Below the pieces are notes generated by a model that was not told where the DNA came from, searched no databases, and worked only from the letters and a program-made list of their open reading frames with translations. A program made the position numbers and the translations under genes. Positions 11,618-32,062 of a stretch of 64,000 bases of DNA are shown piece after piece. Within the stretch, counting starts at the first letter, position 1. Each line of letters opens with the position of its first letter. The DNA lies in assembly GCA_963377175.1 (NCBI GenBank), contig CAUJNA010001226.1, forward strand, positions 34,432-98,431, written 5' to 3'. The stretch comes from Effrenium voratum. Taxonomy: Eukaryota > Sar > Dinophyceae > Suessiales > Symbiodiniaceae.

Positions 11618-11901
11618 TCAAAAAGGAGGTGGGAGCCTGGGGCCTCTCTGTAGCCTCCGCTGGCGGGATTGCACCTCCAACCCCCGCGGTTCGGGAGCTG
11701 AGTTTTCGGGGACTTTTCGAAGATCCCTGTGCACCACCTTTTCCGGCCACCCCTCCAAGCCAAACCTCGCCCCCATCTCCCCGCTCTCGGCGGAGACAAC
11801 CCTGTATACCTTTTCGCTCCAGGCTATCTCGTTGACCCTGTAGGAGCCCCTGCTTTCGATCGGCTTGACCCTGATCCGAACCATATCCCCGACCTTGATT
11901 T
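11618..11901 (-). pseudogene. Integrase C-terminal half, split by the AT-rich element (copy A)
   Basis: C-terminal 93 codons or so of the rve integrase: the small barrel-like domain KVGDMVRIRVKPIESRGSYR, then a Pro/Arg-rich tail, nearly identical to the intact gene at 38257-39261. Homology stops at GACCTTGATTT, where the AT-rich element begins. The other half resumes at 32063. This copy cannot make a functional enzyme. Confidence 0.9.
11896..11901. repeat. Target-site duplication, left copy
   Basis: TGATTT immediately precedes the element; TGATT follows it at 32058-32062. The uninterrupted target in the other integrase copies reads CCTTGATTTCC (38540 region). A 5-6 base duplication is what rve-type Polinton integrases leave. 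The one-base difference means the exact edge is uncertain. Confidence 0.7.
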
Positions 11902-12455
11902 AGTTAGTGGTGGCCTCTCCCGTCCGCATTTTGCCATCCGGTCCTAGGGTCCCCCCCACACTTTTGGGCACATTCTGAATACGCCCACTAAAACAGCCTA
12001 TTTTCAACATTCAAATTCAATCACCCAACCAATCCAACTCCAAAAAACACATATTCACACACCCCTCTTCATTTCTTACCCCATCTCAACATCACCCTTA
12101 CACTCATTCAATAACAACAATCATAACTACATACCACCTCAACAAATCCCACCAAAAAAATCCAAGCTACATACCAACATTGTTTCATTCCCAAGATCGC
12201 AACCCCAAGATCTCAATAATTTCTCCCTTGATCCAAACTGAGACCCTTTCCCATTTCCAACAAATACGAACAGTCTAAAAAAGAACCCTATGTTCGCCCC
12301 GAAAAGTGGTTAACCAATGGAAAAGGGAGAATTAAAACCGTTAACCAAAATCTTGAAAATAATCCCAGTAAAATATGGATGGCAAAATGCGGATGGGAAA
12401 GGCCTATGTAGGAAAGCACCCCCACGGCTTATACGGGAAAATTAAACTAAAATTA
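11902..12455 (+). repeat. Left terminal inverted repeat
   Basis: Aligns end to end with the reverse complement of 31490-32058, with divergence concentrated in the central A/C-rich stretch. The outer 60 bases and the inner 180 bases are best conserved. The inner part contains a relic of the ORF intact in the right repeat (31458-31724), here frameshifted by one base near 12375. Two exact inverted copies of a 16-base motif lie at 11924-11939 and 12377-12392. Confidence 0.88.
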
Positions 12456-12482
12456 CAACATATAAGATCTTATATGTTGTAA
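12453..12482. terminator. Perfect 30-bp AT palindrome at inner TIR edge
   Basis: Positions 12453-12482 form a perfect inverted repeat centred on AAGATCTT. It ends the 62-aa minus-strand ORF (its stop lies inside the palindrome) and also the inward-reading TIR ORF relic. 29 of its 30 bases recur at 30653-30682. It is a likely hairpin 3'-end signal. Confidence 0.65.
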
Positions 12483-12641
12483 CCAAGTATAATCAAGAAC
12501 TGAAACATTCATCTCAATAATAGCTAGCCGTGCTTTCATTATCGCTAAATTCCTCATCCTCGTCATAGAAGTCTTCCGTGCTTTTTCATCTCTCAGCCGA
12601 TGCTTCCACGCACGACGTGTGTGTGGGTTTGACTTGTTCAT
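12453..12641 (-). CDS. Small basic protein, 62 aa
   Basis: A Lys/Arg-rich ORF (MNKSNPHTRRAWKHRLRDEK start) just inside the left TIR. No recognised domain. The palindrome covering its stop codon is the type of 3' signal found after other genes of this element, which favours a real transcript, but there is no homologue in the window to confirm it. Confidence 0.35.
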   Translation of the reverse strand: MNKSNPHTRRAWKHRLRDEKARKTSMTRMRNLAIMKARLAIIEMNVSVLDYTWLQHIRSYML

Positions 12642-12688
12642 GCAATGTCAGAACCACCTTGAGCGCTCAGCATGATAGGGAAACCATG

Positions 12689-12790
12689 AAAAAATCAGTG
12701 TTGATTTAGGGAACCCTCATCTCCACTGAATTGAGAGCTAGTTTCTGAGAATCAGGGTTGATTTTCCTGAAAAATCAAGGTTGATTTTTC
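12689..12790. repeat. Three near-palindromic AATCA-N-TTGATT repeats
   Basis: Three copies of AAAATCA-rG-GTTGATTTT-like sequence lie at about 12689-12707, 12747-12766 and 12769-12790. Each is an imperfect palindrome. They lie between the TIR-proximal ORF and the methyltransferase remnant. They could be protein-binding sites or small hairpins. Confidence 0.55.
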
Positions 12791-12832
12791 CAAGATACCC
12801 CTTGCGCTAGGGTGATGCTGGGTCAGGCATAT

Positions 12833-13153
12833 CTACATCTCAATGTCATTGCCCTTTCCAATAAACCAATAACGGGGCTTAAAATACTCAATGATCTCAA
12901 GGGTCTTCAAAACAATGGAATTTGCATAGTCTACTTTGCGGTTCCCTGTTGTCTTGGCTCTACTGTATTCAGTGCGCGGGGGCGAACTCCAAATAACATC
13001 AAAATGGTTCCTATCAAACTGTCTATAATCCCATTTCAAAATATCAGTATTTATATCAGCATTTTTTAAATCCAATGAAATGACATTGAACCCCAGATCA
13101 CGGGCGATGCGACCGACCGACCCTGTCCCACTAAACGGTTCTAATAGATTCAT
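12833..13153 (-). pseudogene. C5-methyltransferase-like, truncated
   Basis: N-terminal half of a DNA cytosine methylase related to 52158-52817: motif I LLEPFSGTGSVGRIA, SAM-pocket strand VISLDLKNADINTD, then WSSPPRTEYSRAKT and IIEYFKPRYWFI. The catalytic Cys of the PC motif is Arg here (SPPR), and the ENP motif is lost where the frame runs into GKGNDIEM. At 106 aa it is half the length of the GC-rich relative, so it is probably inactive. Confidence 0.7.
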
Positions 13154-13184
13154 CAGCTATTAGAACCGTCTAGATGTTATTTTT

Positions 13185-14104
13185 TCAAACCTTCAGAATT
13201 TCCGATCTCAAATAAGCACGAGTCACACCTTGGACATAATAATAGTCTTGTCCAAGTTTTCGCTCAACCCTTTCAATTGTGAACTTGTTTGCTGACCATG
13301 AACTCGTTCTTTCTTTCTCGGAAATCCCTTTTTTGCGGTATATTTTGACCTCATCACCAACCCTAACAGGGGGATATTTACGGGTTTTGATTCTGTTCAT
13401 CTCAAGCTTCATCTTGACCTCAAGATGGTTTCCCTTTTTGTGGGCATCGTTTGGAGTCATATCGTGGGCAGAATGAACCATTTTACTGTTGTATGTCAGC
13501 ATGATCTCGGGGATATAATCAACCATTGTATATTAACCTTTCCCTTTTTCTCGTCTGCATCAACCCTCTTGAAAAGCATGTCCTTGAACGTGCGGATGAA
13601 GCGCTCAACAAAATGAGGGTGCCCTCTTGTTTTGTAATTCTCTATTTGTTGATCCTTGAAAAAGTCAACAAGATCCTGATTGTTAAGACTCCCTTCGTCA
13701 TCAGAGTAAATGAGGTGGGGCTTCCCGAGTTTGTTCAAACCTTCCATTATCCCAGCAGTGATGTCGGCAGGTTGCTTTGACATGATAGGCATCACCGCGG
13801 CTTTACGGGAGAAAACATCAATAAGAACTAAACCTATACTAAATTTTTGAGTTTGTAAATCATTTTTTGAAATAAAGAACAAATCAAGCTGAAATTCATA
13901 CAGAACATGTGGAGCGATGAATGAGTTGTATCCGGATAGTTGTTTTTTCCTTTGCACATTCTCTTCAAACCACTCCTTAACATCTTGCATTGTGATGGAA
14001 GGATCCTTTTTCTTACTGTCTACTAGAGTTGTTTTTAAAGAACCAAACCCCGCACGATCGTAATACACATTGGAAATTATATCATCTTTGTTAGAACTAC
14101 TCAT
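13185..14104 (-). pseudogene. rve-family integrase (AT-rich element, one frameshift)
   Basis: Catalyses insertion of the viral DNA. The N-terminal ORF (13496-14104) has the DDE core: LDLFF (first Asp), IYSDDEGS (second Asp) and HFVERFIRTFKDML (Glu), plus the upstream GFGSLKTTL/DPSITMQDVKEW region shared with the GC-rich integrase. The second ORF (13185-13526) holds the C-terminal barrel VRVGDEVKIYRKKG. A single frameshift near 13515 separates them. It is either decayed or a base-calling error. It sits next to the TIR, as usual for Polintons. Confidence 0.85.
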
Positions 14105-14122
14105 TATAATAAAGAATATATT

Positions 14123-14806
14123 TTATTTTTCTTGTTCTACTTGTGGTTCTTGTTCTGGCTCTTGTTGTTTTAACCATTGCTGATGCTTCTGAGATTTGAA
14201 GTGTCTTGCCTTGACATTCCACACACAAGAAGCACCACAGTCACAATGGAAAGGTTGCTTTTGTTGCGCCAAATATTTTTCTCGGTTTTGTTGATACCTT
14301 GCCCTACTTTTTTCGTTGACCTCATCCTTGTTCTGTTGATACCACCGGCTGTGTCTTTCACGAATTTGTTCTTTATTGTGTTCAGTGTATCGTTTGTCCT
14401 TTTCTTTGTATCTATCAATGTTGTTTATTCTGTGCTCCTTTTTCTCTTGCAAAAGCCTTTCACGGTTGTCATGGTAGAATTCCTTGCGTGACCTTCCCAC
14501 AACATTTTTATTTACACACATATCAATTTTATTTAAGATTTCAGTTCCTTCCTCTCTTTCTAATTCTGCTCTACTCTTACAAGGGAAGTCTTTGATTAAT
14601 AATATCTTGCAATTATCCAGTCCGTATTCATCAAACAACATCATGGACCTTTCATACTTTCGCCCGCCTCCTTTGCAATAATCTTTGTAGCGCTCCCTGT
14701 GTCTTGCCATTCTGCGGCTTAACTCTTCGGTCGTTGATCCTATATAGCACTTGTTGAACCCTACGTCTACCACTTGATAAATCTTGCCGTTTTGATATTT
14801 GTTCAT
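14123..14806 (-). CDS. GIY-YIG endonuclease
   Basis: 227 aa. The nuclease domain occupies about residues 1-95: KIYQVVDVGFNKCYIGST (the GIY...YIG pair as IYQ...YIG), RRMARHRERYKDY (catalytic Arg) and a Glu in REEGTEILNK. The rest is a highly basic repeat-like region (RYQQNREKY) and a short C-H cluster (CDCGASC ... H) with a Gln/Glu-rich tail, probably DNA-binding. Free-standing GIY-YIG nucleases are common cargo of algal viruses. A TTTAAAGA motif lies 27 bases upstream. Confidence 0.85.
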   Translation of the reverse strand: MNKYQNGKIYQVVDVGFNKCYIGSTTEELSRRMARHRERYKDYCKGGGRKYERSMMLFDEYGLDNCKILLIKDFPCKSRAELEREEGTEILNKIDMCVNKNVVGRSRKEFYHDNRERLLQEKKEHRINNIDRYKEKDKRYTEHNKEQIRERHSRWYQQNKDEVNEKSRARYQQNREKYLAQQKQPFHCDCGASCVWNVKARHFKSQKHQQWLKQQEPEQEPQVEQEK

Positions 14807-14832
14807 ATCCTTATTTACATTAAGATATCCAT

Positions 14833-14840
14833 TCTTTAAA
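14833..14840 (-). promoter_or_regulatory. TTTAAAGA motif before GIY-YIG gene
   Basis: One of five occurrences of (T/C)TTAAAGA upstream of lineage-2 genes, read on the minus strand, 27 bases from the start codon. Confidence 0.4.
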
Positions 14841-14861
14841 TCTTTATAAACAACATATTTA

Positions 14862-17800
14862 TCAATATGTTATTTTATCACTGAAGCATCTATTACAAGA
14901 AGCACAGAAGGCAATGACATTATCCTTTGTATGGGGAAGATCATTACATAACCTTTGACAAGTCAGATTAGAATTTATATTGCCAGAATCCATTGACAAC
15001 ACGAAACCACAGCCACAGTTGGCACACTTACCATTGACGTTGTCCTTCAACCATTCGGCATCTACATAATTTTCTTTTGGAATACAAAAGCCATTTTTAC
15101 GATCCTGTTCCTTGTATGCTAACACCTTTCTATCAAAATAATTCATAATGCATTTTGCGTTAAACTCTTCATTTAAATCACTACTGTATTTGTAAAATTT
15201 TACTCTGTTTAAATCCCTTGCCCGAGTGATTCCCGTCCAAAGCCACTCGCGAGTTATCAGATGATGGTTCCAATCAAAAATGGTGACATCGTCATCAATG
15301 GAACACCCCTGAACAGAATGACAAGTATAACAGAAGGCAAAGATAAAATGACTTCTCAAGATACCAATATGTAATGTAATCTCTTCTCGTGTTTTGATAT
15401 TAGCAATGGTAATCCAAGGATCGGAAATATTAATTATCTCATACCTAAAATTCACATTTAACTTATAGGTTTTTGTCTTCCTATACTCTCTGCATATCAT
15501 GATCTCGCCGACTTCAAACTCATTTTGTTTGCCCTGTCGTTTCCTGATCTGCCTTGAAACCTCTCTACAAGTGTTATTTAAATATGCGACATTGCTTTCT
15601 GTTCCTGCGATGTCATCAGTATATTTAAAATACTTATTGATGACATCATGTAGAGACAACTCATGCTCAAAGATGTCGGCATAAATACTTTTAAGTTTAT
15701 CCTTGTCCTCCTGAGTCTTCAATCGCTTGCACTCTTCCAAAAACAAATGATGGGGAAAAATGCTATCAATACATTCATTCATATAAATCTCGTGTTTCTT
15801 AGTGTTAGTCAGTGCTTTTATGGGGCTCAATTGCTTGGCGTCGCCAGTAGCTAATATGATTTTATTAGCCCTATGTTGCTCTACAAAGCCCTTGATTTTT
15901 GCCAATACAAAGGTATTATTAAAACAAATCTCGTCAAACACAATGACATCAAACATCGAATGATCGTATTTATCTAGCTTCTCGTCATTGACTGCTATAC
16001 TGAAGAATTTATTTACAGTGATGCTTTCCACTTCGCACTCCAAACCCAGATTATTGGTAGGAACCACGAACAACACTTTATAACCCTTGAGTCTCTCCAT
16101 GTTCTTGCAGATGGTGGACTTCCCCGCTCCTGCGAATTTGGCCTTGATCATCAAGCACCTATATTTCTCAACAAGTTCAACCAATTCATTTTCATCATAC
16201 TCATTAATGATGTTAACTCTCTTACTTTTGACAATCGGGATATCAACATATTCACACTTCTTCTGTTCATACAACTGCTTTCCTGTATGATGGATCTCAT
16301 CGTGAGTCTTGGCTAATTTCCACCCACCGATCCCATCGTGAAAATCTAGCAACTGCTGAGTCTTTCTCAAACCAAACTTATTAAAACCCGAACAGTCCAC
16401 GACAAAAGCGTCGCATTTGACACTCAATACCTTAACATTGTTCTCTGTCAATTTTTGATATGCGCATTGCATTTTGAAATTATGATACTGCAATAGCATT
16501 TCTTTAATAAAACGAAACCCATTGGACAACTCGCACCTATCAACCACATTCAGAATATAATATAAATTGTCGTTTTGTTCAGATACTTCTCTATCACGGC
16601 ACCACATGCCATTATCATCATATTCCTCAACCCACTTGGCAGTATTCCTGCTCATCATGTTTAACTTCCCCCCTGCATCTGCTTGAAGGCTGATCGCCTC
16701 ATTGAGATCATTAAAAACGAATGATCTCTGACTACTGTTCTTACTTTTTTCCAACAAGCCAAAAATCGAGTTGGCTATTATTTTTTTAATTGCCTTGTCT
16801 TCTTCAATATTTTCGCTTATTCGCTTTCCCCAGAGTTCCTCAACCAACATTTTATTATCTACCTTGTGGATGAAATGTGGCTGTTTGTAGTGAGTAATGG
16901 ACAACTCGCCAGATGCAACAAGTGGCATAAAATGCTTAAGAAACATACCATAAACTATATTAGTATCATTATTAAAAAACAGATTGCGATGTGTCAGTTC
17001 TGCTTTTACCAAATATATATTTACATCCTTGATCTTACATTTACTATTATAAGCTTTCCAATTATCAAACTGATTAAAAACTCCAATTCTGGTAATCGTA
17101 TTAAATGCATCTGTAAACGCTTTGTTCATGTCGATCTCCTGTTTTGGAACATCCAATTTATCCAAGCCCTTGAATAACTCGCCTTGTGGGACGATGGTTC
17201 TATAATTATTTAAAACTTGTATATCGGTAGGACTATAATAAGACTTGTGATTTGGATTGAATAATTTCTTTTTGAATGTAAACATCGCTTCAGTCATATT
17301 GTTGTAAACCGTTTCTCTGTCTACCGTGATGTCACTATTGATCTGGTCGTCTATCAGACACTGTGACCTAATATTTAGATATACATTATTGAAGTCCGCC
17401 CTCAATTCTGAAATAGTCCCTGCTTTGTGAACAATCTTGCATTCATACCCGATATTTTTGAAATCGCAAAATAATTTATTTAGATCATTCTCTCTATGAA
17501 CTAAATCTAAAAAGTTCTTTTCCTGTTTGTCGGTTCTGTTCGCAATTGTTGCCTTAACCATTTCAAAAATGTCATCAATAGTAGAAAACATTTTGCAAAT
17601 CGATGGCTTCTCTCTATCACTTATATGATAGTCGGGCCGTGCCTTTACTACAAATGCATCATCAGTATTTTGTTTTTGTTCCAATCTTTTAATATTATTA
17701 TTCAGTGTGTAGATATGATTATTTTTGACCATTGCATAAAAGGCTCTGATGTTGCGGTCAAACATCTCTGGTGAATAAGAATAAATGATTTTGCCCAGTT

Positions 17801-18869
17801 GGTCTATTATTCTCACACGCATTCTGTATTTTATAAATACCGGGATCATGTCATCAATTGACGCCCCCGACTCTGTGAATTCCTGTTCTGTTTTATTTAT
17901 TAGTTTTAGTATCATCCCTCGCGACATTGGTTCTTTCTTCTTGTTGTTCATTAGGGTATCTTTATAATAATCAGTGAGTGTATTCAACCAACATTGATTG
18001 TCTACATAATTACCTTTCTGGATTGCTTCCATAAATGTTTCTTTCGATGTATCCAATTCGGTATACATGTAAGTATTATACATACTGATGTTTTCCGACC
18101 TTCTCAGGTTGGCTTGTCGTGGATTACTAGGCTGTCCACCTTCCACCTTTCTGGCCCTCAAGATCTTCAAGGCGCCAATATACCCCGTCTCTACGTTGTA
18201 AGCCACAGCGTTAGTCTTCTTGGTTAACCTCTTCTTCTTGTTGATCTCGATTGTTTTTTTCTGATCAACGCCAACATACCCACCCATAATATTTAGCATT
18301 GTTTCAAATTCTGGATCTTGGGCAAGTGTTACAATGAACTTTCTGAATAGATCATAATCCTTGGTTTTTACAATTCGTTTGCCTACATACTCGTCTATAT
18401 TTGTGCTGGCGTTAACGGTGTATGTTCTCTCCTTACCGTCCTTTGTTATGGGGTAATATTTGAGTTCTCCGTATTCTGTTTTGTATGTGAAAGCCGGCTT
18501 TTTGTTGTCACCTTCCCTAACACCTTCGCGGTAAAGCATGACGTCTAATGTCCATGACTCATCGTTCGCCTTAGACTGCTTTACAATGTTAGTTACAGTG
18601 CTTCGTTTCATCCTAACATTCAACGGTAGATTTATACGGTTGTTTTGGATCACATCGTCGTATTTTTTGTCCCATTTCTTTTTTTCCTTTGGGGTGGTTG
18701 CATTGATAAACCCGTCAATAATAGTTGATGCGGTGCTAAACTGTGCAATTTTTCGCTGTTCATATAGATCTCTCAATTCGGTGGCTTTTTCCCTGGTATC
18801 GCCTGCTAACCTATCAATTCTTGAATTTAATGACCTGATGTTATTTCTTATAGTTTTTGACAATGACAT
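14862..18869 (-). CDS. PolB-SF1 helicase fusion with HNH-like C terminus
   Basis: A 1,335-aa multidomain replication protein. About residues 285-400 form a Cys/His module (NYVDNQCWLNTLTDYY ... NNHIYTLNNN) comparable to the N-terminal module of the GC-rich PolB. The B-family polymerase core follows: motif A EIDMNKAFT (Asp580), motif B KKIIANSIFGLLEKS (about 695-709) and motif C SVKCDAFVVD, where the usual DTDS is CDAF. No exonuclease motifs were found. Residues 905-1250 are a superfamily 1 helicase: Walker A KFAGAGKST (911-919), VIVFDE (975-980), TGDAKQLSP, and TCHSVQGCSIDD with TGITRA. The last 60 residues have a CANCGCGF ... FCASCNRC zinc/HNH-like cluster. Full length and unbroken. Confidence 0.85.
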   Translation of the reverse strand: MSLSKTIRNNIRSLNSRIDRLAGDTREKATELRDLYEQRKIAQFSTASTIIDGFINATTPKEKKKWDKKYDDVIQNNRINLPLNVRMKRSTVTNIVKQSKANDESWTLDVMLYREGVREGDNKKPAFTYKTEYGELKYYPITKDGKERTYTVNASTNIDEYVGKRIVKTKDYDLFRKFIVTLAQDPEFETMLNIMGGYVGVDQKKTIEINKKKRLTKKTNAVAYNVETGYIGALKILRARKVEGGQPSNPRQANLRRSENISMYNTYMYTELDTSKETFMEAIQKGNYVDNQCWLNTLTDYYKDTLMNNKKKEPMSRGMILKLINKTEQEFTESGASIDDMIPVFIKYRMRVRIIDQLGKIIYSYSPEMFDRNIRAFYAMVKNNHIYTLNNNIKRLEQKQNTDDAFVVKARPDYHISDREKPSICKMFSTIDDIFEMVKATIANRTDKQEKNFLDLVHRENDLNKLFCDFKNIGYECKIVHKAGTISELRADFNNVYLNIRSQCLIDDQINSDITVDRETVYNNMTEAMFTFKKKLFNPNHKSYYSPTDIQVLNNYRTIVPQGELFKGLDKLDVPKQEIDMNKAFTDAFNTITRIGVFNQFDNWKAYNSKCKIKDVNIYLVKAELTHRNLFFNNDTNIVYGMFLKHFMPLVASGELSITHYKQPHFIHKVDNKMLVEELWGKRISENIEEDKAIKKIIANSIFGLLEKSKNSSQRSFVFNDLNEAISLQADAGGKLNMMSRNTAKWVEEYDDNGMWCRDREVSEQNDNLYYILNVVDRCELSNGFRFIKEMLLQYHNFKMQCAYQKLTENNVKVLSVKCDAFVVDCSGFNKFGLRKTQQLLDFHDGIGGWKLAKTHDEIHHTGKQLYEQKKCEYVDIPIVKSKRVNIINEYDENELVELVEKYRCLMIKAKFAGAGKSTICKNMERLKGYKVLFVVPTNNLGLECEVESITVNKFFSIAVNDEKLDKYDHSMFDVIVFDEICFNNTFVLAKIKGFVEQHRANKIILATGDAKQLSPIKALTNTKKHEIYMNECIDSIFPHHLFLEECKRLKTQEDKDKLKSIYADIFEHELSLHDVINKYFKYTDDIAGTESNVAYLNNTCREVSRQIRKRQGKQNEFEVGEIMICREYRKTKTYKLNVNFRYEIINISDPWITIANIKTREEITLHIGILRSHFIFAFCYTCHSVQGCSIDDDVTIFDWNHHLITREWLWTGITRARDLNRVKFYKYSSDLNEEFNAKCIMNYFDRKVLAYKEQDRKNGFCIPKENYVDAEWLKDNVNGKCANCGCGFVLSMDSGNINSNLTCQRLCNDLPHTKDNVIAFCASCNRCFSDKITY

Positions 18870-19374: not shown

Positions 19375-21501
19375 TTATTTTGACTTGTCTTTTTTCTTTT
19401 TCTTTTTAAAAACTTCATTTTCCAAATACTCTACACGATCGATTAGTTTTGATAAAGCATCCCAACTAATACAAGCCATACGATCATAACACATCGTTAA
19501 GTATTCTCCCGAATCATTTACAATATTATATTTCGGATTTGTGTATTGTTGAACATCTTGAGCAATCCATCCTAATTCAGTTTTTCTGGTTTTTTGATTC
19601 TTAACAAATGTTTTAATCTTAATGTTTTTTACCATATTTACAGTATCATCTTCTACATCTTCTATATTATCTTTCAGTCTCTTATCGCTACTTAAATTAA
19701 ATCCGTTAAATGATGAAAATTGAGTATCATCCAATTGTAAATATTTAGTGCCATCAATATAACTATCAATAGTTGTTGATGCTTCTAATCTTAAAACAGC
19801 ATCACTATTTAAATGTCTCAAATTGATTTTATGAGCAATTCCAAAAGTCATATCGCCGTCAATAGTCCAATCGCCTCGCAATTCGCTATTGCTTCCACTA
19901 TTCAAAATAATTTTATTATCAGCATATGTTGCAGATAATCCAACAACCAAATTAATAGAGTTTGAAGTGTTGCTATTCCTAATTATTAAATCATTTGTAT
20001 CGACATACATTTCAGCATTATCAATTATTAGTTTTGATGTGTTGCCAAATTGAACATTGCCACTCGGTGAATTTTGTAATAATAAAGTATTTCCTGATAC
20101 AGACTGAACTTGATTGACTTCAATCTTTTTACCAGAAACCATTGTTAAATCGCCATTTGTATATACATCACCTAATACATCAACTGGTTTATTGAATATG
20201 GTTTTTGATACAGCACCGTCGCACATAAAATATTGATTAGAAGAATTAGTAATATCGCCAACACTAACAGCAACAAAATTATTATGCGCCATATATAAAC
20301 CTTCTGTAGCATCTGGTGTATATCTTCGTATTGAACCATTATTATTAAAATTTAAATATGAACCATTGTTAAGACTTATTGCACTGTCTGTTCCTATAAA
20401 CTGGACAGCGCTTGTAAATCGAGCTTGCCCAGCACAATTTAAAACATAATTAACAACGCCAACTGCCCCTAAACCGAATCGATCTTTTATCCATACACGA
20501 CCAACATTAGCATCTCCGATTTGCGTTTCCCAAACGCCTCCTGAGCTTGACATCCACATTCTACCATCTCTATTAATATTAAATTCACGATTAAACATTT
20601 GAAAAGTCATTTGTAGTCCTAAATTTGGTGAAGGGGTACAGCTAAACTTATTACATATTATAGAACCAGTAGTAAGCATGTTTAAATCACTGTGTAAAGT
20701 TGCATTATCGCTAAAATTAATAGCACCTGCTACTGATTGAGCGTTAGTATCTATTTTATCTAACTTTTGTAAATCTGCTGATATTAAACTATTTATTGTG
20801 TTTGAATTTTGAGTTATTAATACATCTTGTATATTATTATCTGATATAATTGAAGCAAATGTATTACTGTAAGCAGTGTTAGTATTGAATAAATTAGTAT
20901 CGTTTGTATATAATGTTGATACATCTGCTTGAATAGTTGTTTTTTCAGCTGTAGTCCAAGAAGCGCCCGCTCCTGCTTGTAAATCTGCTATATCTGTAAG
21001 AATGGTTGTTATTGTGTTTCCGTGTCCTGTTATGTTATTAATGTTTGTGTCAATTAATGATATATGCGATGTTATTGTAGCATTTAAATTACTGATTAAA
21101 TGTGTATTCGAACTAATGTTATTAAAATTAGAATCAAGTTTAATTGTATTTGCTGATATAGTCGGTAGTATTGAAGTTATGGTTAATCCGTGTGCTGTTA
21201 TATTATTAAAGTTGCTTGTAATTGTTGCGTTTTGATTTACTTGTTCATTAAACATAGTTGTTGATGTTGCGTTTAATTCAGTAATATCTAAAATATTGGC
21301 ATCTATCTTATTTTTCTGTGCTAAAATAAGAGCATCAACTTCTTCAATTGTATAACCTCCACCTAATGATCCTGCTGTGTCTGCTAATTCTTGTTTTGTA
21401 GCATAAACACTGCTTAATGTTGATGGTTCTGTTGAATTTATTAATACTAATTCACTTGCTACAATTCTACTTGAGCCGTCCAATGATAATGTTGAAAACA
21501 T
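19375..21501 (-). CDS. Fibre/receptor-binding protein with S74 chaperone
   Basis: 708 aa. Residues 60-260 are Asn/Thr/Ser-rich repeats (SNFNNIxxxTxxI-type) of a trimeric fibre shaft. The middle is a beta-rich region with Gly/Asn-rich motifs (AQFTSAVQFIGTDSA). The last about 110 residues are a peptidase S74 intramolecular chaperone: SSDKRLKDNI carries the Ser-x4-Lys dyad, followed by ELGWIAQDVQ and YDRMACISWDALSKLIDRVEYLENEV. Such domains trimerise a fibre and then cut themselves off. It shares the S74 architecture, but not the shaft, with the GC-rich fibre. Confidence 0.82.
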   Translation of the reverse strand: MFSTLSLDGSSRIVASELVLINSTEPSTLSSVYATKQELADTAGSLGGGYTIEEVDALILAQKNKIDANILDITELNATSTTMFNEQVNQNATITSNFNNITAHGLTITSILPTISANTIKLDSNFNNISSNTHLISNLNATITSHISLIDTNINNITGHGNTITTILTDIADLQAGAGASWTTAEKTTIQADVSTLYTNDTNLFNTNTAYSNTFASIISDNNIQDVLITQNSNTINSLISADLQKLDKIDTNAQSVAGAINFSDNATLHSDLNMLTTGSIICNKFSCTPSPNLGLQMTFQMFNREFNINRDGRMWMSSSGGVWETQIGDANVGRVWIKDRFGLGAVGVVNYVLNCAGQARFTSAVQFIGTDSAISLNNGSYLNFNNNGSIRRYTPDATEGLYMAHNNFVAVSVGDITNSSNQYFMCDGAVSKTIFNKPVDVLGDVYTNGDLTMVSGKKIEVNQVQSVSGNTLLLQNSPSGNVQFGNTSKLIIDNAEMYVDTNDLIIRNSNTSNSINLVVGLSATYADNKIILNSGSNSELRGDWTIDGDMTFGIAHKINLRHLNSDAVLRLEASTTIDSYIDGTKYLQLDDTQFSSFNGFNLSSDKRLKDNIEDVEDDTVNMVKNIKIKTFVKNQKTRKTELGWIAQDVQQYTNPKYNIVNDSGEYLTMCYDRMACISWDALSKLIDRVEYLENEVFKKKKKKDKSK

Positions 21502-22247: not shown

Positions 22248-23102
22248 TTAGTTATCTAATTGAAAGAGAATGCTAAAAGAAATGGGAACGCCGTGAAAAT
22301 CAATTAATTCGTTTCTTGAAGTTGTTATTCTAAAGTGTAGTCTCTTAATATTTTTACCGCCTACATCAATAAAATCTGCATATATGGGCGCTGTAAAATC
22401 TGTTATAACTCCGCCAAGTTGTTGATTAATTTGAACTTTTTTAATTACTGAACTGCTGAAATTATTAGGCGCTGAATATTTATAATCGCTTAATTGAGGA
22501 CAATTTATGTATATATTCTGAAAGGGAACTAAATTAAAGTATCCACTTAACCAAGATGACGCAGGATCATAGGCAATATAATTACTTAATAAATAATTAA
22601 TAGATTTTGGTCTTAAATTGTCATATTCAAACTGTCCTCTGTTCCATTCGCCATTTACATAAGTTTCTAATTCTTCATCTGTAGGTATTTTGATTTTGTA
22701 AGTTAGAGGGTCATTTAATTTAAGTTCCATTTTGCGTTCGCTTTGTCCATATACTGTTAAGAATAAGTCAGGCACAATATCATTAAATGCCGTGTTTAAT
22801 TCCGTTTGTATTTTGTATGATAATTGATTAGCATAATAAATTTCACCGGATACATCAACGGCAGTGCTTCTCAATAAGACATTGGAACTATTATACAACA
22901 TAATATAGAAGCGTTCGTAAAACCCTTTCTCTGTTGTATAAAACGGAGTGCTGAATGAACACTCTGTCACGAACATTTTTGTTCTTGGTGGAATTTCAAA
23001 GTTTTGGTCAAGTTCTATAATAAAATCGCTGGTAGAATTACTTTCTTGCAATCTGTAGGCACTATCAACATAGATTTTTTTATATGTTAATCTGTCACTC
23101 AT
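22248..23102 (-). CDS. Minor capsid protein (penton), lineage 2
   Basis: 284 aa from the ATG at 23102 (MSDRLTYKKIYVDSAYR), chosen over the upstream in-frame ATG at 23117. The IYVDSAYR...SDFIIEL opening matches IYVDSRKR...SDFEVDL of the GC-rich penton at 46046, and both have NCPQL/RCPQL followed by a C-terminal run RLHFRITTSRNELIDFHGVPISFSI. Penton proteins of PLVs fold as a single jelly roll and occupy the five-fold vertices. Divergent with the lipase gene. Confidence 0.85.
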   Translation of the reverse strand: MSDRLTYKKIYVDSAYRLQESNSTSDFIIELDQNFEIPPRTKMFVTECSFSTPFYTTEKGFYERFYIMLYNSSNVLLRSTAVDVSGEIYYANQLSYKIQTELNTAFNDIVPDLFLTVYGQSERKMELKLNDPLTYKIKIPTDEELETYVNGEWNRGQFEYDNLRPKSINYLLSNYIAYDPASSWLSGYFNLVPFQNIYINCPQLSDYKYSAPNNFSSSVIKKVQINQQLGGVITDFTAPIYADFIDVGGKNIKRLHFRITTSRNELIDFHGVPISFSILFQLDN

Positions 23103-23204: not shown

Positions 23205-23986
23205 ATGATAGGAAGACAATTATTATTAGGTGCTATAGAAGGCAGGACGCCTACGCAAATGATGGCAGGCGTAGCAAGTGATAAAGCATATACTGCAGGT
23301 AAGGATTTAATAGAAGATGTATTTTTTAACCATAAAAAGAAATTGGAAGACAAAGTAGGAGGTTTCAATAAACATTTTGATAAGCAGATAATGAAACATA
23401 AAACACGATATGCTGAAGAAATTAATGTTCAAAATAAAAATAAAATTGATGATGTTAAAGGGTTAGATGCCGCGTATTCAAATATAAATGGAATAACAAG
23501 AATAGGCAACACTTTATATATTGGTGGTACTGGTGCTAAAACGGGACTAAATCACAAAGTCAATGATGTAATTGCAGATTTGTTTTTTATTCCTACTCAT
23601 AATGTTCAATTAAGCGAAAGATATAAAGACGCAATGGAAGAATTAAGGAAAAATCCAGATGTTAATAGACTGGTCGGCCATTCCCTCGGCTCATCCGTTG
23701 TTCAAGAAATTAACAATAGACACGGAAACAAATATGCTACTACTGTTTATTCATCACCTTTTGTATCAGGAACTAACCAGCAGAAAAACCCGCGACACTA
23801 CGATTTAGAAATCGTGGAGATCCTATAGCAATGTTCGATGACGCGGCAATAACTGGAGAAATAGAAAGCAATAATTTATTAGACAAACACAGTTTCAATA
23901 ATTGGGAAGGAAATGGACTCACAAGTATAAATCCTACTACTGATATTTCTAATGGGTTTAATCCTAATTCAACACCAGAACAATAA
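23205..23986 (+). CDS. Lipase-like alpha/beta hydrolase (one frameshift)
   Basis: The main ORF (23205-23828, 207 aa) has the nucleophile elbow GHSLGSS and upstream NTLYIGGTGAKTG, typical of class 3 lipases found in PLVs and phages. The expected continuation, RFRNRGDPIAMFDD and a KHSFNNWEGNG tail, lies one frame back and runs to a stop at 23984-23986. The switch is near 23800, close to an A5C3 run. Single-base loss or sequencing error is the simplest cause. It may help the virion cross a membrane. Confidence 0.72.
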
Positions 23987-24255: not shown

Positions 24256-25839
24256 ATGGATAATATAATCGCCGAATCAGAAACTACAATGATTAACTCG
24301 CTAAATTTTGGACTTCCAGAAACAGCACAATATATCACAGACCGACGACACGTTAATTATTTTCCATCGGGTAGTAATGTTTATAATCCAAATTCAGGAA
24401 ACAAAAATATTAGATTTCATATAACAGGTGAAGACAACACATATATTGATTTATCTTCTATTCGTTTATTTGCCAATCTTCAAAACACAGACGGAACACG
24501 AAGTCATTTTTTACGCCCGTTAGGTAATTTATCATCCTTCTTCAGTCGTTATAGATGCAATGTAGGCGGACAACAAGTTCAGGATATTATTGAATACAAT
24601 AGGCACTGTGAATTGTATAATTCCTTTAAAAGTCAAGATGCTAGAGATATGGACGATTTAGAAGGTGGTGCCAATCCTCGGTGGGATGATGACTGGCGAC
24701 ATACTTATGCTACTGGATTAGCAGAATTTGTTGATGTCAATACACGAACCAATCCCACTGCCTCCCCTGAGGCAGTTGGAGTTTCAACTACAAAAGACCA
24801 TAACAATTGGGGAGACTTAACATCGCGATATACTCGCCATTCAGTAGCAGGAATTCCCGGCGCTAATAGTTATATGAGATTAGGACATAAACCAGTATGC
24901 GGACTGTTAGAAAGCAATTATTATTTACCTCTTCGTTATGCTCCACTTGAACTGGAATTTACAATTGTATCAGATGAACATATACCAGTAGTTACGCCTT
25001 TTACCGTAACTGATGTCAACACTCAAAATGATGCCAAAGGTTATTATTTCACAACTGGAGACACCTCAACACAGTGGGAATTGAATAACGTAATCATTAG
25101 AGCCGAGGTAATACAATTGGACAACACGGTTAACAATAATATAGTGAAACATTTGTTAGAAGGTCAAAGTTTAAAATTAGTATTTCCAATGTATCACACT
25201 ATGACACAATCATTCAACGCGGGAGGAAATGAAATTAATATGAACATTGTTAAATCCGCTTCTAAATTAAATGGTTGCTTCATTACATTGTATCGTGCAC
25301 CAAGAGCAGGTGTAGATGCTGATAATAATAATTACTACAGACACGATAATTATATTTACAAGCGATGGAACTACTTTTACAATCCTATGATTAATTCTCG
25401 TATTTTTGATGGTCCTAATCCAGATGGCGCTGATCGTGAGCGATTCCAAGGTAAAGGCTTTCAAGATAAAGATTTAAATTTAACGTGGCAATTACAAATT
25501 AACAATAAGAAATATCCAGAGTTTGAATGCCAGAGCCTCGCCGAGAGTGCCTACTACCTCCGAAGAACATTACACTATTTGAACCCTGACCAAGACGCCT
25601 TTAGCATTTCATATAAACGCTACAGAGAAGACAAGTTCGTTATTGGGATTTCATTTGAAAAGATGGCGGACACTAATTTTACAGGCCAGAATACGAAACA
25701 AGGAGGCTTACTCGTTTTTAAACTAAAAGGAAGTAACAGAGCACTGACAGATAATGAAGATGTGCGAGAATTATTTGTGCATATGATTTCGGAGTCTGTT
25801 CTGGAATTACGCGAATCCGGAAGTCTGCTCTATGATTAA
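24256..25839 (+). CDS. Major capsid protein, double jelly-roll (lineage 2)
   Basis: 527 aa, unbroken. The N-terminal ITDRRHVNYFPSGSNVYNP is the PLV MCP signature, followed by FHITGEDNTYIDLSSIRLF and FFSRYRCNVGGQQVQDI, and a beta-rich second half with RYAPLELEFTIV. The C terminus ends in VLELRESGSLLYD. It forms hexons of the T-number capsid together with the penton. Two MCP lineages in one window (this one and 49092) are too diverged to be copies of each other. Confidence 0.92.
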   Translation: MDNIIAESETTMINSLNFGLPETAQYITDRRHVNYFPSGSNVYNPNSGNKNIRFHITGEDNTYIDLSSIRLFANLQNTDGTRSHFLRPLGNLSSFFSRYRCNVGGQQVQDIIEYNRHCELYNSFKSQDARDMDDLEGGANPRWDDDWRHTYATGLAEFVDVNTRTNPTASPEAVGVSTTKDHNNWGDLTSRYTRHSVAGIPGANSYMRLGHKPVCGLLESNYYLPLRYAPLELEFTIVSDEHIPVVTPFTVTDVNTQNDAKGYYFTTGDTSTQWELNNVIIRAEVIQLDNTVNNNIVKHLLEGQSLKLVFPMYHTMTQSFNAGGNEINMNIVKSASKLNGCFITLYRAPRAGVDADNNNYYRHDNYIYKRWNYFYNPMINSRIFDGPNPDGADRERFQGKGFQDKDLNLTWQLQINNKKYPEFECQSLAESAYYLRRTLHYLNPDQDAFSISYKRYREDKFVIGISFEKMADTNFTGQNTKQGGLLVFKLKGSNRALTDNEDVRELFVHMISESVLELRESGSLLYD

Positions 25840-28115: not shown

Positions 28116-28126
28116 TATTATATATA

Positions 28127-28336
28127 ATGGGTATTGGTCAAAGTAAAGACGATGAAAATAACAGTATGGAAGACATTAAGAATTTAAGAGTAGATGAAAA
28201 GACAAGAGCAGATACTTTAATAATAAAATCTATTCAAGAATGTGTGGCACGAATTGAGAAATTAGAAAAAGAAAAATCTGACAAATTAATATATAAACTT
28301 CCTGCTTTACAATTTTGCAATGCTTCGTTAATTTAA
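28127..28336 (+). CDS. Small protein with MGxGxS-type N terminus, 69 aa
   Basis: Starts MGIGQSKDDENN, which resembles an N-myristoylation signal (inference only). The remainder is one amphipathic helix (IQECVARIEKLEKEKSDKL). Follows the 270-aa gene by 11 bases; 3' hairpin at 28341. Confidence 0.5.
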   Translation: MGIGQSKDDENNSMEDIKNLRVDEKTRADTLIIKSIQECVARIEKLEKEKSDKLIYKLPALQFCNASLI

Positions 28337-28340
28337 ATTG

Positions 28341-28366
28341 ATAATATTAACATACATTAATATTAT
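28341..28366. terminator. Hairpin between convergent genes
   Basis: ATAATATTAA/TTAATATTAT, ten base pairs with a six-base loop, in the 29-base gap between the 69-aa gene (+) and the 77-aa gene (-). Confidence 0.55.
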
Positions 28367-28599
28367 TAATTACTATCATAATCTGTCATTTCACTTTCGG
28401 GTAATTTTGTTGAGGCGTTGCTACACATATCATCTATTAAATCTTCTTCATCAACAAAATTATTTTGAAATCTTAATAATTCCTCGTCTGTTGGTCGTCT
28501 TTTTAACACTTTATAAAGTTTATGTATCCAAGAATTAGTATGAAAATTGTAATTACCTCTACGATAAAATCCACCACATCTACATAGTTTCATTAGCAT
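28366..28599 (-). CDS. Small protein, 77 aa, CxCGG N terminus
   Basis: Begins MLMKLCRCGGFYRR, then HTNSWIHKLYKVLKRRPTDE and an acidic tail. No family recognised. It lies just after the ATPase gene on the same strand, so the two may share a transcript. Confidence 0.5.
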   Translation of the reverse strand: MLMKLCRCGGFYRRGNYNFHTNSWIHKLYKVLKRRPTDEELLRFQNNFVDEEDLIDDMCSNASTKLPESEMTDYDSN

Positions 28600-28629
28600 A
28601 TTATTATATTATATTAAATTAGAATATCT

Positions 28630-29394
28630 TTATTCATCATTTGTAATTTGAAATGCCTGTTCAAAATTGATATGAAACATGTTGTTAATGTCTTTTGAAT
28701 TCATATTCACGTAGAAAAAAGAATATGGAGCAAAATTAACGGCTTGATGATACATATCTAATAATTGATGTTTGTCAACAATGGCGCTATTTTCTTCAAT
28801 AAAACTCATTAATTCACTGGCATTTTTCAACCTAAAAATATATAATGAACTGGCATTTAAACGAATGATAGGCGCCAACACATTATATTTCTGTGTTGAA
28901 CAAATTACGCTTATTGCATCGTGCCTACCTCTTGTAAATAATCCATGTAATAATTTACTATATCTAACAAATTTAGGATCGTCGGCGTGATCGTCTATAA
29001 CGATTAATATTGAATGTAGATTCTTTATCTTTTTAGATTTCATATAATTAATTATTTTCTTCTGTCTTTCAATTACATTTTCTAAATCACTTGGATTATA
29101 ATTATCAAAATAAATTTGTTCTTTTTCATCATCCACGTGCAATTCATCCCTGATATATTTTTTAACTTCTGTAAAGGTTGGGTCATTATGAACGCTGGGG
29201 GAAAATATAAATATTCTTGCAAATGAATTTCTATAAACATTTAAGATAAGGTTCTGAACCAAGACTGTTTTGCCACCTGTCGAACTCGCAACTATAATAC
29301 TTCTAAACGGTAATTTTGGCACGTGCTCATATTTAGATTGTTTGAATTCATATTCAGTTATGTTTATTGGCTTTATTATTGGAACATCTGACAT
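28630..29394 (-). CDS. Genome-packaging ATPase (A32/FtsK-HerA type), lineage 2
   Basis: 254 aa. Walker A IVASSTGGKTVLVQN (about residues 33-47), Walker B ILIVIDDHADD (about 128-138), an Arg-finger region LFTRGRHDAIS and the sensor ICSTQKYN. It pumps DNA into the preformed capsid. Its homologue in the GC-rich element is at 45148, with the same IFIFSPS/IYIFSPS strand after Walker A. Confidence 0.9.
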   Translation of the reverse strand: MSDVPIIKPINITEYEFKQSKYEHVPKLPFRSIIVASSTGGKTVLVQNLILNVYRNSFARIFIFSPSVHNDPTFTEVKKYIRDELHVDDEKEQIYFDNYNPSDLENVIERQKKIINYMKSKKIKNLHSILIVIDDHADDPKFVRYSKLLHGLFTRGRHDAISVICSTQKYNVLAPIIRLNASSLYIFRLKNASELMSFIEENSAIVDKHQLLDMYHQAVNFAPYSFFYVNMNSKDINNMFHINFEQAFQITNDE

Positions 29395-29446
29395 AATAAA
29401 ATAATATTAAAGTTATTTAGAAAATATTTTATATTTATTATTTTAT

Positions 29447-29635
29447 ATGAATAGAAGCTATTCGGATTATATCAATATAATAGATGAAGTAGAGAATATA
29501 GAACAAGTTGTTATAACTGATAATAGATGTAAAAAAATATGTTATTTTATTTTAGAATTAATTAAGTTTGTGATACAATATATCAAAAATAAAAATGTAA
29601 ATCTTAATATAAATGGGAAGAAAGACAAAGAATAA
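29447..29635 (+). CDS. Small protein, 62 aa
   Basis: MNRSYSDYINIIDEVENIEQ start; acidic front, hydrophobic middle (ICYFILELIKFVIQYI) that could be a single membrane helix, basic tail. It overlaps the next gene by 23 bases, which suggests co-transcription. Confidence 0.45.
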   Translation: MNRSYSDYINIIDEVENIEQVVITDNRCKKICYFILELIKFVIQYIKNKNVNLNINGKKDKE

Positions 29636-29972
29636 GACTGAACCAGTTGTTTCTTCAACTGATGAAGAAAAAGAAGAAATTGTTAAAGAAACATCAGTTA
29701 TTGAGTTTGCTTGTCCAATGTGTAAAAGAATATTAGAAATGAAAAATGAATTAGAAATTCAAAAGAAAGGAAACTGTAAATGTTCGTGTATTCCGACAAG
29801 TTTCAAACTAAGTAAGAATGATAAAAAAATGAATATTGATAAAACTAAAGACAGTATCAACTTAGAAACAGATGTTCATAATATTGCTATACGCTTTGGG
29901 AGGGGAGTTACTCCATCCGATAATGGTGATAAGGAAACTCAGGAAACTATTAAACAAATGATGAAAAATTAG
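29613..29972 (+). CDS. Zn-ribbon-like protein, 119 aa
   Basis: Basic N terminus (MGRKTKNK), acidic linker, then CPMCKRILEM ... GNCKCSC with four to five Cys able to bind one zinc. Unknown role; one of several small Cys-rich proteins at this end of the element. Confidence 0.55.
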   Translation: MGRKTKNKTEPVVSSTDEEKEEIVKETSVIEFACPMCKRILEMKNELEIQKKGNCKCSCIPTSFKLSKNDKKMNIDKTKDSINLETDVHNIAIRFGRGVTPSDNGDKETQETIKQMMKN

Positions 29973-29974
29973 TA

Positions 29975-29982
29975 TTTAAAGA
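29975..29982 (+). promoter_or_regulatory. TTTAAAGA motif before 71-aa gene
   Basis: Same core as other upstream motifs but 73 bases from the ATG at 30055, so it is the weakest of the five. Confidence 0.25.
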
Positions 29983-30054
29983 GTAGATTTAACATAATTT
30001 AAACATTTAGTTTTAAAAGTTTTATTTTATAATATAATATATATATATATTTAC

Positions 30055-30270
30055 ATGGATGAAGGATTAGAAAAGATGGTTAAAAAACTGAACAAGGTTT
30101 TAGAACAGAATAAGAATATTTTAGAAATCTTACAAGAAATGGAAAAGAAGAAACCATTAACAAACAATTATCAAAGTAAGGAAATAGATCGAACCAATGG
30201 TGAATATAAAAATAAAAGAAACATTTATTTAAACAAACTTAATAACAAAGAAACATTTTATCAACTATAA
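30055..30270 (+). CDS. Coiled-coil peptide, 71 aa
   Basis: MVKKLNKVLEQNKNILEILQ has heptad hydrophobics over about 35 residues, then a Lys/Asn tail. Unknown function. A TA dinucleotide run (about 30037-30049) precedes the ATG. Confidence 0.45.
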   Translation: MDEGLEKMVKKLNKVLEQNKNILEILQEMEKKKPLTNNYQSKEIDRTNGEYKNKRNIYLNKLNNKETFYQL

Positions 30271-30350
30271 CAAACGAAGGCTTCAACTATAACATTTTAT
30301 CAAATCGACTATGATGAAGATACAGGGATTTATTCTTGATTGAAAACATT

Positions 30351-30380
30351 TTTCTCTGAAAATCCGTTTAAAGACATATT
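30351..30380 (+). promoter_or_regulatory. 30-base conserved upstream motif, 81-aa gene
   Basis: TTTCTCTGAAAAT then a variable four bases, then TTAAAGACATATT. It matches 30716-30745 at about 26 of 30 positions, 16 bases before the ATG at 30396. Confidence 0.55.
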
Positions 30381-30395
30381 GGCATAACTAATATT

Positions 30396-30641
30396 ATGAG
30401 TTCTACAGATGACGAAGAAGAAACAGGATACACAATGGTTTATCCTTGCAGTAAATGCGACGAAGCAAAGCCAAGAAAGGATTTTCACAAAATGTATGAT
30501 AGAATTAAAATGGAAGAGATATTTTACAAAACATGTAAGGAATGCAGAGACAAAGTAAAAGCAACAAACGAGTTAAGGAAGGAACAGAAGAAACGAATAC
30601 AACCCCTGGAAATACATAGATTAAAGCCTTTGATACCATAG
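30396..30641 (+). CDS. CxxC...CxxC zinc protein, 81 aa
   Basis: YPCSKCDEAKPRKDFHKMY followed by YKTCKECRDKVKATNELRKE: two CxxC pairs about 34 residues apart, like many small algal-virus and phage proteins that pair a zinc knuckle with a basic helix. Possible DNA- or RNA-binding regulator (inference). Confidence 0.55.
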   Translation: MSSTDDEEETGYTMVYPCSKCDEAKPRKDFHKMYDRIKMEEIFYKTCKECRDKVKATNELRKEQKKRIQPLEIHRLKPLIP

Positions 30642-30652
30642 TTTTGCTATAC

Positions 30653-30682
30653 TTACAACATGTAAGATCTTATATGTTGTAA
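30653..30682. terminator. AT palindrome after 81-aa gene
   Basis: A 30-base inverted repeat with one mismatched pair, 12 bases after the stop. It differs by one base from the palindrome at 12453-12482. Confidence 0.65.
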
Positions 30683-30715
30683 TTATAGTGGTACAAATAT
30701 TTCTATAAATTATAA

Positions 30716-30745
30716 TTTCTCTGAAAATGTACTTAAAGACATATT
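30716..30745 (+). promoter_or_regulatory. 30-base conserved upstream motif, 221-aa gene
   Basis: Same motif as 30351-30380, 24 bases before ATG 30769; it supports 30769, not 30727, as the start. Confidence 0.55.
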
Positions 30746-30768
30746 ACCTATATATGTATATTAGGACA

Positions 30769-31434
30769 ATGAGCGATACAGAAAGTGATACAGAAAGTGA
30801 AAATAGTCAATATAGTGATACAGATAGCGAATATAGCAAATATAGTGATACAGTCCGTGAAGATATTGATGCTAAACATATATTCAGAGAAAAGTTTATG
30901 AGTTATAAATGTAGAGACTGTGAGATGCTAAAATTACCAATTAAACAAGGTTTTTTGAATGGTGTTTGTGATAATATTTGTCAATGTATGATATGTGATA
31001 ATTGCAATAAAATTATAAACGAAATTGATGATATGAATAGCAAATATATTAATTCTAGAAATGTTAAAAATCTTGATGAAGATTTAGAAATATTTGTGTT
31101 TATTAAAATGAATAAGTTCTTGACTGAAGAAGAGTTTGGAAATTTATTATATAAGGGCGATGAGGAAGGAAATGATAATGATTTTATTTATAAGTATTAT
31201 AATCTGGTAAAAAGATTATATGGTATGTCTTTTAATATTAGGCGTTTAATGAAAGAAGCAATGAATGATAATGACTTTGATTTTATAAGTTGTGAGTATA
31301 AAGCTCACGAACTTAGATATACGGTAATAAGTGCAATTAGAACAATGGGCTGGTTTAAAAAGGAAATAGGAAATAATATATATAATGAAAAAACGACTGA
31401 TAAAATAATAAAAAGAATTATAACAGAATTTTAA
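30769..31434 (+). CDS. Cys-rich protein with acidic N terminus, 221 aa
   Basis: Starts MSDTESDTESENSQYSDTDS (a low-complexity acidic and Ser/Asp-rich opening). Residues about 40-85 have CRDCEMLKLP ... CDNICQCMICDNCNK, seven Cys in a probable zinc-binding cluster. The rest is helical and charged. Not recognised; possibly a late regulator. Confidence 0.6.
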   Translation: MSDTESDTESENSQYSDTDSEYSKYSDTVREDIDAKHIFREKFMSYKCRDCEMLKLPIKQGFLNGVCDNICQCMICDNCNKIINEIDDMNSKYINSRNVKNLDEDLEIFVFIKMNKFLTEEEFGNLLYKGDEEGNDNDFIYKYYNLVKRLYGMSFNIRRLMKEAMNDNDFDFISCEYKAHELRYTVISAIRTMGWFKKEIGNNIYNEKTTDKIIKRIITEF

Positions 31435-31457
31435 AATGAATTAGAATAAAGTTGAAC

Positions 31458-31724
31458 TCATAATATAATTATAACATGTAAACATTTATATGTTATAATT
31501 ATACTGTAATTTTCCAGTATAAGCCGTGGGGGTGCTTTCCTACATGGGCCTTTCCCATCCGCATTTTGCCATCCAATGTCACACAGATTATTTTCAAGAT
31601 TTGGGTTAACGGTTTTAGTTCTCCCTTTTCCATTGGTTAACCATTTTTCGGGGCGAACATAGCGTTCTTTTTTAGACTGTTTGTATTTGTTGGAAATGGT
31701 AAGAGTGTTCTCAGATTTGATCAA
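31458..31724 (-). CDS. TIR-encoded ORF, 88 aa
   Basis: Reads outward-to-inward from the right TIR: YVRPEKWLTNGKGRTKTVN ... NADGKGPCRKAPPRLI. The same peptide is legible in the left TIR with one frameshift, so the reading frame has been under some conservation or is recently lost. No domain known. Its 3' end lies in the palindrome 31464-31503. Confidence 0.45.
   Translation of the reverse strand: MIKSENTLTISNKYKQSKKERYVRPEKWLTNGKGRTKTVNPNLENNLCDIGWQNADGKGPCRKAPPRLILENYSIIITYKCLHVIIIL
31464..31503. terminator. Long AT palindrome between convergent genes
   Basis: A stem of about 14 perfect pairs (TATAATTATAACAT and complement) extending inward with a few more pairs to a short loop. It lies 30 bases after the 221-aa gene and covers the 3' end of the TIR ORF. 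Confidence 0.6.
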
Positions 31725-32058
31725 TGGATAAAATATTTATATCTTTGGGTTGCGAATCTTGGAATGAAAAATGTATGTATGTAAGCTGATTTTATATGGT
31801 GATATTGTGATTTTATGTTGTAGTACACAATGATGTTTTATTGAATGATAGTAAGGTTTATGTTTGTGATTGTTAAGTGAAATGAAGATGGGTATTGAAT
31901 TTGTGTGTTTTTTGGTGTTTGAATTGGTGGTGAACTCTAAAACCGCAGTTGATAAATAGGCTGATTAGAGTTTTTGAAAAGATAAAGATAAAAAAAGTGG
32001 GGGGGTACCCTAGTGACCTGATGGGCAAAGAAATGCGGACTGTAGAGCCACCACTACT
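31490..32058 (-). repeat. Right terminal inverted repeat
   Basis: Reverse-complement partner of 11902-12455. The end reads GCCACCACTACT, the mirror of AGT(T)AGTGGTGG. An exact copy of the internal 16-base motif lies at 31559-31574 and a degenerate one at 32020-32038. Between about 31725 and 32040 no gene is visible beyond TIR sequence. Confidence 0.88.
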
Positions 32059-32062
32059 GATT
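32058..32062. repeat. Target-site duplication, right copy
   Basis: TGATT, partner of TGATTT at 11896-11901; the integrase coding sequence resumes immediately with CCG(GGCGGG-like). Confidence 0.65.

Follow-up and report, generated by a model that had tools for sequence, protein, structure and literature searches.

A polinton-like virus within a polinton-like virus

The window analysed here, a stretch of 64,000 nucleotides from Effrenium voratum (contig CAUJNA010001226.1), most likely records the insertion of one polinton-like virus (PLV) into another. According to this reading, to which we assign a probability of about 0.92, an AT-rich PLV of ~20 kb (lineage 2) was integrated by an rve integrase, likely its own, at the sequence TTGATTT in the integrase gene of a GC-rich PLV (lineage 1) that was itself already integrated. 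As far as nucleotide sequence can establish them, the boundaries of the insert, the target-site duplication, the terminal inverted repeats (TIRs) and the direction of nesting are demonstrated. A preliminary description of this DNA had proposed the same direction of nesting, and the junctions, the 5–6-bp duplication and the paralogous empty sites described below support that proposal.

GC-rich DNA (55–72% GC in 1-kb windows) fills most of the window outside an AT-rich block, in which the GC content falls to 26–41% between ~12.0 and 32.0 kb. The GC profile, the TIRs and the junctions delimit the inserted element at positions 11902–32058 (~20.16 kb), with an uncertainty of ±1 bp at the ends owing to runs of T. 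Repeat comparison identified TIRs of ~580 bp: the left one (11902–12482, + strand) starts with AGTTAGTGGTGG, and the right one (31469–32058, − strand) terminates with CCACCACTACT. Their matching arms are located at 12248–12364/31586–31702 and 12376–12482/31469–31575, and the whole repeats show 77.8% identity over aligned bases. The termini, AGT(T)AGT and ACTACT, are of the AGT(T) type that had been recognised initially and resemble the (AGT)2//(ACT)2 ends that have been reported, together with 6-bp duplications, for vertebrate Mavericks (PMC8097293).

At the left junction (11896–11913), TGATTT is directly followed by AGTTAGTGGTGG (in a wider reading, ...CCTTGATTT is followed by AGTTAGTGGTGG), and at the right junction (32048–32065), ...CCACCACTACT is followed by GATTCCG. 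The two copies of the target-site duplication, TGATT, are present at 11896–11900 and 32058–32062 (both + strand), as had been described; the T at 11901 is a possible sixth base, and the first T of the right copy overlaps the ACTACT end. Two copies of the lineage-1 integrase gene that contain no insert, copies B and C, read TTGATTTCCGGG and TTGATTCCCGGG, respectively, at the insertion point, where their empty sites are found at 38535–38540 and 60056–60060. The alignment of the left flank with these paralogues extends to 38540 in copy B and to 60060 in copy C. On the right side, the local alignment starts only at 32074, and a global alignment from TGATT continues through the flank with single-base gaps and several mismatches. 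Because the global alignment runs on in this way, the two flanks share 5–6 bp of the empty site, and the duplication is therefore 5 bp long, or 6 bp if losses of T at the right junction are allowed. Duplications of 5–6 bp have been reported for rve elements (available parts of PMC12220804 and PMC8547959), which agrees with the earlier expectation for Polinton-type integrases.

The interrupted integrase gene, copy A, lies on the − strand on both sides of the insert. Its C-terminal part, identified by paralogue alignment, is located to the left (11618–11901; residues 242–334 at 11899–11621) and its N-terminal part to the right (32058–32801; residues 1 to ~207 at 32801 to ~32181). The gene has been severed at approximately residues 241/242 of 334, past the presumed catalytic residues D75, D134 and E165. 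The initial view that the reading frame simply stops at 11901 and resumes at 32063 is thus correct in outline, but the region of 32058–32181 contains further damage, namely several indels, a loss of frame and a stop at 32139–32141. Copy B (38257–39261, − strand) is open over 334 codons, as previously stated, and contains V at residue 95, a position occupied by D in each of the 16 further relatives aligned. Copy C (59778–60761, − strand) had also been regarded as uninterrupted, but it is frameshifted, with a loss of frame and stops at approximately residues 48–96. Copy B probably belongs to the same element as copy A. Because this apparent tandem copy is still open, it is not demonstrated that the outer element was left without an integrase, and the earlier claim that the insertion inactivated the integrase of that element is not established: copy A has further frame damage, which may predate or postdate the insertion, and the element would retain copy B with its unusual residue 95.

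The nested structure most likely arose in the following steps. A GC-rich lineage-1 PLV was already integrated when lineage 2 arrived. The rve integrase of lineage 2, before its own gene was frameshifted, would then have acted on TTGATTT in the lineage-1 integrase gene, and staggered cutting would have produced the TGATT(T) duplication. The site was presumably hit by chance.

Age of the insertion and alternative explanations

The absence of the insert from copies B and C indicates that the insertion is younger than the split of A, B and C. In the left flank, within the integrase part, 97–99 of 100 bases per window are identical to copies B and C; beyond the integrase gene, A and C are much more different (44/74 to 91/100). 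In the right flank, beyond an initial 200 bp, copy A shows a difference of 0–7% per 100 bp from B or C, with some gaps.

Several features weigh against the main reading. Only five bases of the duplication are clear, with T-run ambiguity at both ends. In the first 200 bp to the right of the insert, A and B are identical at only 72/98 and 74/85 positions, with 17 gap columns, whereas B and C are identical at 97/100 and 91/100 positions in the same stretch and the left flank of A is intact. The two TIRs are more divergent than would be expected if they had been identical at the time of insertion into copies that differ, outside this decayed stretch, by 0–7% per 100 bp. Finally, the lineage-2 integrase gene of this copy is now broken. 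The segment of 32058–32230 is itself a site of strong one-sided decay of lineage-1 sequence, with several G-to-T differences and indels.

The divergence of the TIRs raises the possibility that the insertion is old and has been carried along by the lineage-1 element, the 22% difference reflecting its age. We regard this as improbable, because there is no insert in copies B and C, copy A is only slightly different from them beyond the 200 bp next to the right junction, and the long open reading frames (ORFs) of lineage 2 remain open. Most of the 22% difference probably predates the insertion or builds up unusually fast; gene conversion among the lineage-1 copies could mask age. The use of TIR divergence as a clock was rejected, as the flanks are younger.

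Slightly less credible still is an assembly chimera, in which two unrelated stretches would have been misjoined inside a repeated gene. Both lineages are multi-copy, misjoins are favoured by repeats, and the odd decay of the right flank might be taken as a trace of such an error. However, a chimera would need both ends of the element to coincide with TIR termini and TGATT to occur at both junctions, and both flanks continue one paralogous sequence. In view of the target-site duplication and of the empty sites in the paralogues, this explanation was judged unlikely.

The choice of an integrase gene as the target also deserves consideration. The two integrase copies represent ~7% of element A/B without the insert, and one insertion into an integrase gene therefore requires no preference. 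Among the best 120 of 164 integrase relatives, 56 share with copy B a stretch of 75% identity or more. Five of the 56 span from residue 5 or earlier to residue 330 or later, indicating that most are fragments or fusions. Two of the stretches stop within residues 236–246 (P0135 at 243 and P0225 at 246); their tails consist of other sequence with no lineage-2 TIR, although this protein-level test misses insertions that end the protein at once. No integrase with a match to the translated lineage-2 TIR was detected among 360 proteins, a protein-level sample that cannot exclude a preference, and the one weak match (P0023, E = 0.001) lies inside a capsid relative. Protein tails, read in 13 sequences and then compared across the 360 proteins, gave no sign of a repeated insertion at this residue. 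The truncated integrase relatives look like products of ordinary decay, and the nesting looks like a single chance insertion amid many decaying copies. A targeted or selected attack, in which lineage 2 prefers the integrase genes of other PLVs and disables competitors, would fit the one insertion observed and the probable coexistence of both lineages in one genome, but the small target share, the lack of an integrase with a TIR match and the unrelated tails of P0135 and P0225 make it hardly tenable. The broader suggestion that endogenous PLVs are recurrent targets of PLVs of the same genome, with insertions into integrase genes immobilising rivals as a form of interference in the protist nucleus, also appears very doubtful. 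The interference raised in the preliminary description would rest on one event in a target of this size, and no second insertion at the site was found among the 56 related integrases.

Gene content of the inserted element

Lineage 2 is a PLV, as judged from its capsid, ATPase, integrase, helicase and fibre genes. It encodes a double-jelly-roll capsid protein and an A32-type ATPase, possesses TIRs and, with its 20.16 kb, falls within the size range of 14–40 kb given for PLVs in the available part of PMC12220804. An rve integrase, associated with the 5–6-bp duplication, is recognised by homology, and its gene is frameshifted. The N-terminal piece containing rve (13496–14104, − strand; Pfam rve E = 0.0067, below the cut-off) and the C-terminal piece in another frame (13185–13526, − strand), identified from its ORF and by comparison with relative P0241, are 98.0% and 99.1% identical, respectively, to P0241, a continuous protein of 306 amino acids. 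The element had been called a complete virus; this is true of its layout, but not of its integrase gene, which is split between two frames.

The major capsid protein (24256–25839, + strand) was assigned on the basis of its relatives and its predicted double-jelly-roll fold. Among the best 120 of 366 relatives, 32 are at least 91% identical over 68–100% of the length, and the predicted model, of modest quality (mean predicted local distance difference test score [pLDDT] of 54.4), yielded fold matches to the PBCV-1 capsid. Five relatives among the matches listed with a source name are all labelled 'Skav', presumably Symbiodinium kawagutii, and show 63–71% identity, in agreement with a dinoflagellate host. 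The packaging ATPase (28630–29394, − strand) matched Pox_A32 above the cut-off (E = 4.4e-11), and a minor-capsid candidate (22248–23102, − strand), the function of which is suggested by homology, corresponds to a lineage-1 gene (45656–46801; E = 1.5e-9).

A protein of 1335 amino acids (14862–18869, − strand) is the putative replication protein. Its C-terminal part gave matches to superfamily 1 (SF1) helicases below the curated cut-offs. We infer that its N-terminal part is PolB-like from what we take to be polymerase motifs; no PolB model matched the protein in the Pfam scan, and no match was found among PDB sequences. The neighbouring ORF (14123–14806, − strand) is homing-endonuclease-like (phrog_19446, E = 1.6e-4); we read a GIY-YIG pattern in it, and no Pfam GIY-YIG match was obtained. 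A fibre-like protein (19375–21501, − strand) carries a C-terminal Peptidase_S74 chaperone (E = 7.9e-10). A further ORF (23205–23828, + strand) is possibly lipase/hydrolase-like, in view of a weak match (E = 0.011) and a GHSLG motif that we take as a sign of this function. A methyltransferase-like ORF (12833–13153, − strand; Pfam E = 0.031, below the cut-off) comprises 106 amino acids, compared with 222 in its lineage-1 homologue. A maturation protease was recognised in none of the 10 lineage-2 ORFs scanned with Pfam. Scans of IMG/VR with single proteins and alignments gave pattern matches and no confirmed relative, the capsid query found no match among PDB sequences and phage records, and a PHROGs scan of seven proteins gave only weak or general matches.

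In the left TIR, the outer segment at 11912–11939 has a 28-nt inverted partner of 93% identity in the inner part (12377–12404), 437 nt apart. The same search listed no such 28-nt pair in the right TIR.

Organisation of lineage 1

The name lineage 1 is used here for the GC-rich family of related units, which is a second PLV lineage and the outer host of the insert. Self-comparison of the window distinguished element C (~50.4–64 kb) from element A/B (~2.2–50.4 kb); a left repeat region, the PolB half and the integrase are common to both. Within A/B, the segment of 11618–11901 plus 32058 to ~38.1–38.26 kb matches 38257 to ~44.4 kb. This sequence similarity gives A and B the appearance of a tandem duplication, with 38257–44440 as its second unit, and they would accordingly be parts of one lineage-1 element; if so, A/B is ~28 kb long without the insert. 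The duplicated block of 6.2 kb extends from the integrase through the methyltransferase-like gene, and lineage 2 interrupts the first unit.

PolB, an rve integrase, an A32 ATPase, capsid proteins and TIRs are all represented in lineage 1, but they are distributed over units Z, A/B and C, and no single element is intact. They include a packaging ATPase (45148–45939, + strand; Pox_A32, E = 4e-9), a minor-capsid candidate (45656–46801, + strand) that is homologous to that of lineage 2 in the profile comparison given above, a major capsid protein in frameshifted pieces (49086–50353, + strand; capsid profile matches with E = 1.9e-21 and 9.6e-16) and, in element C, a PolB gene (54117–57116, + strand; Pfam DNA_pol_B_2, E = 5e-11). 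The integrase matched Pfam rve below the cut-off (E = 4.3e-5), and a model of copy B (pLDDT of 63.9) gave a fold match to retroviral intasomes. Self-comparison identified the repeat-rich left TIR of A/B at 2193–3580 (+ strand), and the ends of element C are likewise repeat-rich and inverted. The window stops short of the right end of element C, and element A/B adjoins other lineage-1 sequence. No host gene was recognised in the window.

The lineage-1 terminal regions at 2193–3580, 50477–52037 and 63361–64000 are arrays of tandem units of ~59–83 bp (CCGAGACGGATCTTCC...). A 1.35-kb segment with the capsid gene (49096–50441 in element B) is inverted in the left fragment (849–2192). One breakpoint of this inversion cuts the capsid gene at codon 3; ATGGAGGT has been left behind, and that copy has lost its start. 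Between PolB and the integrase, small-gene units are arranged in tandem at 10090–11300 and 58478–59366, with a spacing of ~456–477 bp and, in one case, 270 bp.

On sequence grounds, lineages 1 and 2 are distant relatives, because lineage-2 queries matched five lineage-1 homologues (integrase, ATPase, minor-capsid candidate, major capsid protein and methyltransferase), the integrases with E values of 4e-22 and 3.1e-24. Their replication proteins differ, and their base compositions are very different.

Comparison with known systems

It is common for transposons to be nested in one another, and retrotransposon guests in PLVs are already known; here the guest is itself a PLV. Our literature search, from which subscription papers were excluded, found no case of PLV-in-PLV insertion among the papers listed. 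In its main text, PMC10120064 never uses 'nested', 'inside' or 'within other', and no such nesting was found in the available parts of PMC3671162, PMC13037468, PMC12480563 and PMC11244446. The window thus provides a clean case of a capsid-encoding PLV that has landed in another PLV, and such nesting allows PLV insertions to be ordered in time. It also gives a warning that one endogenous-virus call may hold two viruses. Two related lineages adjoin in one DNA stretch despite GC contents of roughly one third and two thirds, and if repeated genome-wide, nesting would bear on competition between PLVs.

The closest parallels, as far as the available parts of the sources extend, are Tyrannomonas regina PLV-27 (PMC12747079) and cryptophyte PLVs (PMC12220804), in which retrotransposons are nested in PLVs, in one case in the rve integrase gene, and disruption of such genes is expected to abolish activity. 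In that integrase case, as in the present one, a mobile element disrupts an integrase gene carried by an endogenous PLV; however, the guest there is a retrotransposon of ~4–10 kb with direct repeats, whereas here it is a capsid-encoding PLV with TIRs. The endogenous mavirus-like elements of Cafeteria with Ngaro retrotransposons (PMC8547959, available part) provide another example of multi-layer selfish nesting in a protist. That guest is a retrotransposon of the tyrosine-recombinase type and is GC-rich within an AT-rich element, and the GC contrast is thus the reverse of that observed here.

With respect to the insert, the available part of PMC12721341, which also mentions a polinton of Symbiodinium kawagutii, describes a comparable element in the dinoflagellate Oxyrrhis marina, OmPLV. 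Like lineage 2, OmPLV is an AT-rich PLV (~25 kb, with fragments of 5–27 kb) in a GC-rich genome and carries genes for a capsid protein, an A32 ATPase, a methyltransferase and GIY-YIG. However, OmPLV uses a tyrosine recombinase and generates no duplications, whereas lineage 2 has an rve integrase and a duplication. The order in OmPLV is helicase and then PolB; in lineage 2, the helicase is C-terminal, as in Tlr1-type fusions (PMC12721341).

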